NCBI RefSeq assembly: GCF_003852235.1
Contig: NZ_CP027732.1
Location: 682,001 to 746,000, forward strand
Direction of reading: 5' to 3'
Length of the DNA stretch: 64,000 nt
From: Pseudomonas sp. R4-35-07
GTDB taxonomy: Bacteria > Pseudomonadota > Gammaproteobacteria > Pseudomonadales > Pseudomonadaceae
Shown here: positions 11,810 through 28,713 of the stretch, piece by piece
Numbering within the stretch: position 1 is the first letter of the stretch
Layout of the letters: every line of letters starts with the position of its first letter
Translations under genes and position numbers: made by a program
The notes under the pieces: generated by a model
Told to the model about the DNA's origin: nothing
The model's database searches: none
Seen by the model: the letters and a program-made list of their open reading frames with translations, nothing else

Positions 11810-13510
11810 TTAGAACAGGAAATAGCGCTGCGCCATCGGCAGTACTTCAGCCGGTTCACACCACAGCAATACACCATCGGCCTTGACCTGATACGTCTGT
11901 GGGTCCACTTCGATATCCGGCAGGTAATCGTTATGGATCAGGTCGCTCTTCTGCACCTCGCGACAGCCCTTGACCACCGCAATCTGTTTTTTCAAACCCA
12001 GGGCCTCGGGCAGGCCGGCCTTCTGCGCTGCCTGGCTGATAAAGGTCAGGCTGGTGGCATGCAGTGCGCTGCCGAAGCTGGCGAACATCGGCCGGTAGTG
12101 CACCGGCTGCGGTGTGGGAATCGAAGCGTTGGCATCGCCCATCAGGCTGGAGGCAATCGCGCCGCCCTTGAGGATCAGCGTGGGTTTGATCCCGAAGAAC
12201 GCCGGGCGCCACAGCACCAGATCGGCCCATTTGCCAACTTCGATGGAGCCGACAATATGGCTGATGCCATGGGTGATCGCCGGGTTGATGGTGTACTTGG
12301 CGATATAGCGCTTGGCGCGAAAGTTGTCGTTGCCCGGGCCGTCACCGGGCAGGGCGCCACGCTGTTTTTTCATCTTGTCGGCGGTCTGCCAGGTGCGGGT
12401 GATCACTTCGCCGACGCGGCCCATGGCCTGGCTGTCGGAACTGATCATCGAAAACGCACCGAGGTCGTGCAGGATATCTTCGGCGGCAATGGTCTCGCGA
12501 CGGATGCGGCTTTCGGCGAAGGCCACGTCTTCGGCGATGCTCGGGTCCAGGTGGTGGCAGACCATCAGCATGTCCAGGTGTTCGTCGATGGTGTTGCGGG
12601 TGAACGGCCGCGTCGGGTTGGTGGAACTGGGCAGCACGTTCGGCAAGCCGCAGGCCTTGATGATGTCCGGCGCATGTCCGCCACCGGCACCCTCGGTGTG
12701 ATAGGTGTGAATGGTGCGGCCCTTGAGCGCGGCGAGGGTGGTTTCGACGAAGCCGGATTCGTTGAGGGTGTCGCTGTGGATTGCCACCTGCACGTCGTAT
12801 TCATCGGCGACGCTCAGGCAGTTATCGATGCTGGCGGGCGTGGTGCCCCAGTCTTCGTGCAGCTTCAAGCCAATGGCGCCGGCCTTGACCTGTTCGATCA
12901 ACGGCTCGGGCAGGCTCGCGTTGCCCTTGCCGGTAAAGCCGATGTTCATCGGGAACGAATCACTGGCCTGCAGCATGCGCGCCAGGTGCCAAGGCCCTGA
13001 GGTGCAGGTGGTGGCGTTGGTGCCGGTGGCAGGTCCTGTGCCGCCGCCAATCATAGTGGTGACGCCGCTGGTCAGCGCCTCTTCGATCTGCTGCGGGCAG
13101 ATGAAATGCACATGGGAGTCGATACCGCCGGCGGTGAGGATCATGCCTTCGCCGGCGATCACTTCGGTGCTGGCGCCGATGGCCATGGTCACGCCGGGCT
13201 GGATGTCGGGGTTGCCGGCTTTGCCAATGGCGTGGATGCGGCCGTTCTTCAGGCCCACGTCGGCCTTGACGATGCCCCAGTGGTCGATGATCAGCGCGTT
13301 GGTGATCAGGGTGTCGACCACTTCATGGGCGAGCAACTGGCTTTGGCCCTGACCGTCACGGATCACCTTGCCGCCGCCGAATTTCACTTCTTCGCCATAG
13401 ACGGTGAAGTCCTGCTCCACTTCGACGAACAACTCGGTGTCGGCCAGGCGGACCTTGTCGCCAACGGTGGGGCCATACATGTCGGCGTAGGCTTGTCTGG
13501 AAATCTTCAT
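11810..13510 (-). CDS. ureC: Urease catalytic subunit alpha UreC
   Basis: UreC holds the di-nickel active site that hydrolyses urea to ammonia and carbamate. The 566-residue protein has all active-site ligands: [10 protein letters not shown] (the two N-terminal His), GLKLHEDWG (the carbamylated Lys and a following His), [10 protein letters not shown] (His), [12 protein letters not shown] (His), [16 protein letters not shown] (catalytic His in the flap) and SSDSQAMGR (Asp). The start is the ATG at 13510 ([13 protein letters not shown]). It is the last gene of the urt-ureDAB-C run. A 120-base repeat separates it from ureB. Confidence 0.99.
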
Positions 13511-27182: not shown

Positions 27183-27470
27183 TCAGATCGCCGTGGCGTG
27201 AAGCTTGAGGCCCAACGCCTTCATGACCTTCATGATAGTCGCGAACTCGGGATTGCCGGCGCTGGAGAGGGCTTTGTACAGACTTTCTCGTCCGAGGCCG
27301 GCATCGCGGGCTACCTGCGTCATGCCTTGGGCGCGGGCGATGTTGTTAAGAGCTGAACGAATCAGCACACCGTCACCGGCATCTTCTTCGAAGGAGGCTT
27401 CAAGATATTCAGCCATGTCCTCCGGGGTCTTGAGATGCTCGGCTATGTCAAAATCCTTAAATTGAGTCAT
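27183..27470 (-). CDS. HigA-type antitoxin (addiction module antidote protein)
   Basis: The 95-residue protein has a C-terminal helix-turn-helix (GMTQVARDAGLGRESLYKALS, about residues 49-69), followed by NPEFATIMKVMKALGLKL, the signature of this antidote family. The N-terminal part (DIAEHLKTPEDMAEYLEASFEE) is acidic and likely wraps the toxin. It starts three bases after the toxin gene ends. The toxin-first order is the HigBA type. It probably represses its own operon. Confidence 0.9.
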   Translation of the reverse strand: MTQFKDFDIAEHLKTPEDMAEYLEASFEEDAGDGVLIRSALNNIARAQGMTQVARDAGLGRESLYKALSSAGNPEFATIMKVMKALGLKLHATAI

Positions 27471-28039: not shown

Positions 28040-28160
28040 GCTCAAACAGAAATTTCCGACAAGGATTTGAGGTTGTCTCTAGGAAACTCAATCTCTAGTC
28101 TCCGTACACCGCTGCAAACTCAGCGGTCGGGCGTCGCGGCTCGGATTTCTATGGACGCTG

Positions 28161-28194
28161 AGCGTCATCGTCTGCTTTCAGTTGGCGCTTTTTT
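28161..28194 (+). terminator. Possible regulated terminator within the leader
   Basis: AGCGTC (28161-28166) can pair with GGCGCT (28184-28189), and T6 follows at 28189-28194. Two competing pairings share these strands. GACGC/GCGTC at 28154-28166 uses the left arm. GGCGCT with AGCGCT at 28209-28214 uses the right arm. The stems are short, so this is a suggestion. Confidence 0.35.
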
Positions 28195-28319
28195 ATCGTC
28201 TACTGTGCAGCGCTATGGCGGCTGTGCGCGGGATACCTTCGGGTATGCCGGGTTTCCTTAGGTCCGGTCCGCGAACCTGCGTACAGCTGCCACCCCATCG
28301 CGTCGCGGCGATCAATGGC

Positions 28320-28341
28320 AGCTCCACTTTCCTAAGGAGCT
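28320..28341 (+). promoter_or_regulatory. Hairpin that sequesters the ribosome binding site of the DUF3077-like gene
   Basis: AGCTCC at 28320-28325 pairs with GGAGCT at 28336-28341, covering the AGGAG that lies seven bases before the ATG at 28347. This competes with the upstream TCCTTAGG pairing, so both predicted states hide the site. Confidence 0.6.
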
Positions 28342-28346
28342 TCACA

Positions 28347-28595
28347 ATGATCAAACCCACCCCCAATCCCCCCATCCGGCTGTTCACCGTGGCCGACGGC
28401 ATCAGCACCGAAGACCTGCTGGTCAACCTCAGCGAAACACTCGCCTCGGCCAATGCGCTGAGTTGCGACATTGCCTTTAACCTGGAAGGCGCACCACGCG
28501 AGGAATTGCTGGGCGTTGCGCAGTTGATCGAGCTGGCGCAGTTGTTGGCTGATCGTGTGAACGATGTCGGGCAGGCCACAGCGGCAGGCAGCTGA
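28347..28595 (+). CDS. Small DUF3077-like protein of unknown function
   Basis: The 82-residue protein starts MIKPTPNPPIRLFTVADGIS, continues with an amphipathic helical part (TEDLLVNLSETLASANALSC) and ends in another helix (LLGVAQLIELAQLLADRVND). No signal peptide or membrane segment is present. From memory it resembles DUF3077, a family restricted to pseudomonads and usually present in several copies. The ATG at 28347 has AAGGAG, which is buried in RNA structure. The function is unknown. Confidence 0.75.
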   Translation: MIKPTPNPPIRLFTVADGISTEDLLVNLSETLASANALSCDIAFNLEGAPREELLGVAQLIELAQLLADRVNDVGQATAAGS

Positions 28596-28609: not shown

Positions 28610-28698
28610 TGTGGGAGGGGGCTTGCCCCCGATTGCAGTGGATCAGCCAATAAGTCTGTGTCTGACACGCCGCACTCGGGGGCAAGCCCCCTCCCACA
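28610..28698. repeat. REP doublet after the DUF3077-like gene
   Basis: This inward-facing GTGGGAGGGGGCTTGCCCCC pair lies between the convergent DUF3077-like gene and cobK. Confidence 0.93.
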
Positions 28699-28713
28699 TT
28701 GGACCGGTGTGGT

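Follow-up and report, generated by a model that had tools for sequence, protein, structure and literature searches.

What is the strongly structured leader that precedes a small gene in the chromosome of Pseudomonas sp. R4-35-07, and how might it govern that gene? The locus lies in a 64,000-nucleotide stretch of contig NZ_CP027732.1 (positions 682,001 to 746,000; hereafter the window, whose numbering is used unless the genome is named). The initial annotation, made from the sequence alone, had taken the leader for a nameless RNA, perhaps a riboswitch or thermosensor, a view it proposed to give up if an Rfam family matched. Two such families did: an Rfam search placed a C4 antisense RNA (RF01695) at 28211..28297 on the plus strand (81.7 bits against a cut-off of 45, E 1.8e-14) and, 5' of it, a c4-a1b1 target element (RF03163) at 28095..28147 on the same strand (48.8 bits against a cut-off of 46.7). 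We identify the structured leader as a C4 antisense RNA with its own a1/b1 target element in front of it, of the kind known from phage P1. We saw no sign of ligand or temperature sensing, and no further Rfam family, riboswitches and known cis-regulatory elements included, passed its cut-off at the locus; with E values up to 1 allowed, the additional matches were isrK and one miRNA (a chance match). The elements of the locus are as follows.

28073-28078 and 28096-28101, plus strand: weak promoter-like pair, TTGTCT and TAGTCT, 17 bases apart, read by eye.
28109..28126, plus strand: 5' hairpin of the leader in the predicted fold, the first helix of RF03163.
28133..28140, plus strand: a1 site GTCGCGGC, whose TCGCGG is complementary to CCGCGA of a'.
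28149..28154, plus strand: possible degenerate b1, CTATGG, weak.
28160..28194, plus strand: terminator-like hairpin (28160-28167 with 28183-28190) followed by a T run, in the interval from a1/b1 to C4, predicted fold.
28216-28292, plus strand: C4 helices, within the RF01695 match.
28252..28263, plus strand: b' loop of C4, from the Rfam model alignment and pairing comparison.
28269..28275, plus strand: a' strand of C4, CCGCGAA, from pairing comparison.
28302..28309, plus strand: a2 site GTCGCGGC, eight bases identical to a1.
28320..28341, plus strand: local hairpin over the ribosome site, read from the sequence and from local folds.
28331..28338, plus strand: b2 site CCTAAGGA, overlapping the Shine-Dalgarno site at 28334-28339.
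28347..28595, plus strand: DUF6124 gene (PF19619), 82 aa, with its ATG at 28347.

Much of the anatomy originally read from the sequence was borne out. The 17-bp helix formed by 28216-28232 and 28276-28292 is fully paired, with three G-U pairs, and corresponds to helix 1 of the Rfam C4 model; the UUCG-capped hairpin is present, and so is the second hairpin, although Rfam gives the latter five pairs and a 12-base loop rather than the eight pairs claimed, the extra pairs being weaker and lying inside the loop. Within that loop, TCCTTAGG (28255-28262) is the exact complement of b2 over the ribosome site, as had been proposed. Pairing in the window thus spans eight bases for b' with b2 and six for a' with each of a1 and a2, while the longest pairing of b' within the 110 bases upstream of C4 is five; in some orthologues, clear b1 matches of 7-9 bases are found. 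Folding of 28101-28360 gave z = -5.03, a value as low as none of 200 shuffles reached. Across 55 distinct relatives, 98.9% of helix cells were paired and both-side changes occurred in 10 of 27 helix pairs (88 cells, whereas shuffling gave 17.6 on average and slid controls 0-13). Its view that the plus-strand RNA is what selection maintains also found support, given that C4s in three other genomes scored 61.5-95.1 bits against 20.5-27.2 bits for opposite-strand matches (E up to 0.01). Finally, the GG at the start of helix 1 is invariant in an alignment of the 14 C4s of this genome, which fits the RNase P processing site described in the available part of PMC5320573.

The gene behind the leader had been called DUF3077-like, and some of its relatives carry that label in UniRef; in Pfam, it matches DUF6124 (PF19619, 81.6 bits against a cut-off of 27), and DUF3077 (PF11275) was not reported for it at E 0.001, at E 5 or in the genome search. 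The 82-residue protein is predicted to form two helices (pLDDT 87.0). Structural searches gave no informative match, no NCBIfam or PHROG family matched, and a relationship to P1 Icd was undetectable (hhalign probability 0.1). Its nearest named relative in our scan came from Pseudomonas aylmerensis (98% over residues 1-79), and PFLU_0601 of Pseudomonas fluorescens SBW25 is related at 84%.

That scan, which used the window protein as query, returned 344 relatives; from these, 80 Pseudomonas loci were carried forward and searched with a C4 model built from the 14 C4s of the own genome. We found 64 C4s at 62 of the 80 DUF6124 loci, upstream and on the strand of the gene, and so the suggestion that similar leaders stand before related genes elsewhere was correct. 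Of the 18 loci lacking a C4, 10 had an a1/b1 element over cut-off shortly 5' of the gene. As in the window, cobK lay downstream at 20 of the 80 loci, 17 of them with a C4; given that this neighborhood is common to so many loci, the site looks inherited with the chromosome. The cobK site holds 18 modules with 15 distinct b' loops. With G-U pairs allowed, b'/b2 runs within a module averaged 10.13 bases, against 6.58 for the b2 of other copies (0 of 20000 permutations), and thus loop and target change together in one orthologous gene. We consider this co-change the strongest single piece of evidence. By eye in the alignment, TAGTCT of the promoter-like pair was exact in 15 of the 18 cobK-site copies, had one mismatch in two and was missing in L103; a consensus scan of the window leader reported neither promoter-like nor terminator-like elements. 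Several cobK-site loci also carry copies of an Antidote-like gene found in the window at 27183-27470 on the minus strand (PF21716, 104.9 bits), and the adjacent reading frame upstream of it is presumably RelE/HigB-like.

The 14 own modules and the 64 from the 80-locus search, minus one duplicate of these 78, gave 77 distinct modules in which own pairings could be compared with those to other modules' targets. The longest a'/a2 pairing averaged 6.53 bases with the own target and 3.47 with others, and the longest b'/b2 pairing 7.35 and 4.42, respectively; the corresponding values for the two upstream-site pairings were 6.57 versus 4.41 and 6.47 versus 5.03 (0 of 5000 permutations in each case). 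Because the modules are related, the tests were rerun on a set thinned to a single module for each distinct element (17 a', 50 b'), and the outcome was again 0 of 5000 each, although such permutation controls account for relatedness only in part. Two control windows within the genes showed no own-pairing effect, with 4959 and 1005 of 5000 permutations reaching the observed value, or 3086 and 396 with one module per element. Three further genomes gave 0 of 3000 permutations in each of four tests. A duplex-energy comparison in the 14 own modules was less favorable: just three of 14 antisense strands had their own a2/b2 target in first place (12 of 14 for the upstream target), although the mean still beat all 20000 permutations. 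Together with the cobK site, the permutation tests on the 77 modules uphold the claim that the loop pairs with the ribosome site of the small gene. The hairpin at 28320-28341, likewise anticipated, is of a common type: in local 42-base folds, GGA was wholly paired in 64 of 76 modules, a count that stands without a shuffled comparison (one of the 77 modules lacked a clear site and was left out). Membership in the C4 family, the pairings with their co-variation and the position before the gene are established here.

From this architecture, we infer a module built like the P1 c4-icd-ant leader, in which C4 probably pairs with a2/b2 and keeps translation of DUF6124 low. A single transcript would carry a1/b1, C4, a2, b2 and the DUF6124 gene, and C4 would act within it or after excision as an RNA of about 77 bases, a step that in P1 involves RNase P. 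Pairing of a' with a2 and of the b' loop with b2, covering the Shine-Dalgarno site, would then lower translation, whereas pairing with a1/b1 may soak up C4 or affect termination before it; the local hairpin may present b2 and partly hide the ribosome site by itself. Transcription, processing, repression and a gene that is off by default are parts of this model that we deduce from sequence; C4 most likely blocks translation at b2, the action that the P1 record gives for icd-ant. Two features of the window fit the model less well, namely the degenerate b1 and an a'/a2 pairing of six bases rather than seven. The 18 of 80 DUF6124 loci that lack a C4, and the unequal C4 and DUF6124 counts of some genomes, also speak against it.

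A tentative alternative, to which we give somewhat less than even weight, is that the terminator lying between a1/b1 and C4 is the main point of control. In an IsrK-like mode, a short leader RNA would switch translation on by acting in trans on the read-through transcript; in a P4 CI-like mode, pairing of C4 with the upstream site would promote termination. The short and read-through forms of IsrK, and also P4 CI, are described in the accessible portion of PMC4825925. The terminator-like hairpin with its T run in the window agrees with such control, as does the TTTTT that 51 of 77 modules have no more than 80 bases ahead of C4, although the other 26 modules have no such run. The terminator scan missed the hairpin at 28160-28190, its loop limit being shorter than the hairpin loop. 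The 92-base fold containing the hairpin was unremarkable overall (z -0.81, 41 of 200 shuffles equally low), the 5' arm was lost, by eye, in five of 18 cobK-site copies, and the isrK model (RF01394) remained below its cut-off in the window (41 against 50 bits). We retain repression of DUF6124 through a2/b2 as the probable main mechanism, while the hairpin and the T runs leave room for an additional IsrK- or P4-like layer.

The window module is one of many. On its single contig of 5.84 Mb, the own genome carries 14 C4s that pass the cut-off, 15 a1/b1 matches (five over cut-off), three DUF3077 matches and 15 matches to DUF6124, two of which are fragments of a single split gene. Eleven of the 14 C4s stand before a gene that passes the DUF6124 or DUF3077 cut-off, two stand before ORFs with sub-threshold DUF6124 scores (17.2 and 25.9 bits), and the last, M4963, is followed by a short ORF and then a gene matching QslA, a family of LasR antiactivators (38.7 bits against a cut-off of 25). 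The QslA-matching frame, near position 4963616 of the genome (L047:754-1281, 176 aa), matches in its C-terminal part (PDB 4ng2, E 1.2e-6); if real, M4963 would be a C4 switch before a quorum-sensing type of regulator. In module M4757 (L046), the short ORF after C4 runs into the beginning of the DUF3077 gene, suggesting translational coupling of the two. Among 29 genomes, C4 was present in 20, comprising 18 of 19 in the genus (own included) and two of 10 outside it with one copy each, and DUF6124 in 14, all of them among the 19 of the genus. The other 18 genomes of the genus carried 0-42 C4 copies, while in a class-wide draw C4 occurred in six of 114 genomes, the five besides our own having 1-3 copies, and therefore the observed C4 expansion lies in this genus. 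Counts of C4 and DUF6124 do not match in some genomes (38 versus 2 in G009, 41 versus 15 in G006, 10 versus 1 in G003); given that C4s outnumber DUF6124 there, genes other than DUF6124 must follow many C4s.

Pairing codes were compared within four genomes with 14 (own), 32 (G029), 28 (G031) and 21 (G030) modules. These have 10, 16, 14 and 14 distinct a' seven-mers and 14, 31, 28 and 21 distinct b' loops, respectively, and the a'/b' combination was private within its genome for all 95 modules, none being repeated. Pairing of b' with its own b2 averaged 9.09 bases (at least 8 in 78 of 95), compared with 5.70 when b2 came from a different module with the same a' (at least 8 in 16 of 146) and 5.72 for the remaining modules (at least 8 in 229 of 2202). 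Private codes may have arisen because insulation is selected for, or because b' drifts fast and is compensated, and these data do not separate the two readings. We see about an even chance that some Pseudomonas chromosomes hold tens of vertically inherited C4 switches, each with a code selected to be distinct and each controlling one small helical protein gene alone, a naturally insulated set derived from a phage immunity system.

Some leaders have the target element without the antisense RNA, and C4 RNAs of certain loci might also control such leaders elsewhere in the genome. In three genomes, we counted 25 a1/b1 leaders without a C4, 10 of which contain an exact seven-base match to an a' of the same genome; such a match turned up in 7 of 242 coding windows, in 9 of 500 shuffled leaders and in 1 of 25 reversed ones. 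Nevertheless, b' runs mostly did not favor the a'-matching C4 over other C4s, and a match in a may be a relic of common descent. Because the a'-matching leaders mostly do not match b', we do not claim a trans network and regard it as unlikely. Leaders of this kind in the own genome precede small helical-looking proteins at L060, L061 and L062 (genome positions 325037, 217211 and 3197867), for which no Pfam family was found up to E 10. DUF6124 genes without a C4 occur there too: one (L058:1499-1903, genome from 3584298) lies directly 5' of a PrrF small RNA (161.7 bits), and the other (L059, genome 4479377) is split into two frames behind its leader.

Given that C4 is best known from phages, the locus could also be a decaying phage remnant without present function. 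Part of the leader is common to five phage records, and the four examined all have a C4 over cut-off; one of these, EU982300, from a P. fluorescens strain, has a C4 and a DUF6124 relative at one record end. We nonetheless judge a remnant very improbable: the cobK neighborhood recurs at 20 of 80 related loci, 17 of them with a C4, loop changes there are compensated, and a DUF6124 relative occurred in one of 50,697 phage records and none of 72,556 plasmid records, with no PHROG match. The four Pseudomonas phage records with a C4 are those of phiAH14b, vB_Pae_U10, Phipami28 and DVM-2008 (L338, L339, L340 and L341); two are also over cut-off for a1/b1 and isrK, and in three the C4 lies inside annotated reading frames. 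The a' seven-mer of phage P1, CTGTCAA, is found as well in two chromosomal modules of the P. lactis genome G030 (L309 and L311); in a bolder extension of the insulated-set reading, chromosomal C4s might also recognize the leaders of incoming phages and act in exclusion. Elsewhere in the window, a 5' ureB small RNA (RF02514) matches at 13078-13361 on the plus strand (104.5 bits against a cut-off of 40), and a large inverted repeat, GGGAGGGGGCTTGCCCCC ... GGGGGCAAGCCCCCTCCC, occupies 28612-28703 directly 3' of the DUF6124 gene; it resembles a terminator or the REP elements of Pseudomonas.

Neither C4 nor its occurrence in many copies is new. A c4 antisense RNA is listed for Proteobacteria and phages in the accessible part of Weinberg 2010 (PMC2864571), and the available text of PMC5320573 cites C4 predictions in Pseudomonadales and reports expression and apparent processing of many C4-like sRNAs (Group 1) that differ in a' on one Acinetobacter baumannii chromosome, the precedent for multi-copy C4. 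Our literature search, which covered titles and abstract starts from largely open-access journals, returned no description of a DUF6124-linked C4 family in Pseudomonas, and the DUF6124 link, the conserved cobK site and the private codes were absent from the literature so found. A common Pseudomonas family now has a defined antisense mechanism attached to it, and setting the switch offers a way to test what the family does; many parallel antisense RNAs with unshared codes in one cell offer a natural case for how regulators stay insulated after duplication.

The closest known system is c4-icd-ant of P1/P7, with which the Pseudomonas modules share the fold, the order a1, b1, C4, a2, b2 over the start site, and the complementarity of a' to a1 and a2 and of b' to b2. 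In the annotation of the P1 record, the series a1, b1, c4, a2, b2 ends with icd, and the P1 leader passes both Rfam cut-offs (C4 68.8 bits); CTGTCAA in its c4 complements a1 and a2, TCACTAAC complements b2, and b1 is one base off b2. The a'/a2 pairing is seven bases in P1 and six in the window, where b1 is degenerate; icd-ant is replaced by DUF6124, and the Pseudomonas modules are chromosomal, at a conserved site, in many copies per genome and with private codes. The A. baumannii Group 1 RNAs are likewise multi-copy, chromosomal and variable in a', but their targets are unsettled in the available part of PMC5320573, whereas in Pseudomonas the targets follow immediately downstream and change in step with the loops. 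IsrK of Salmonella Gifsy-1 has, according to the accessible portion of PMC4825925, a similar leader RNA, terminator and structured region before small genes, and the overlapping short ORF of M4757 resembles its orf45-anrP; the window differs in its sub-threshold isrK score and in having DUF6124 rather than anrP or antQ. P4 CI with seqA and seqC, which we compare by its description in that same portion, is also an antisense RNA with complementary sites both up- and downstream; it acts by premature termination, whereas in the window b2 covers the ribosome site.
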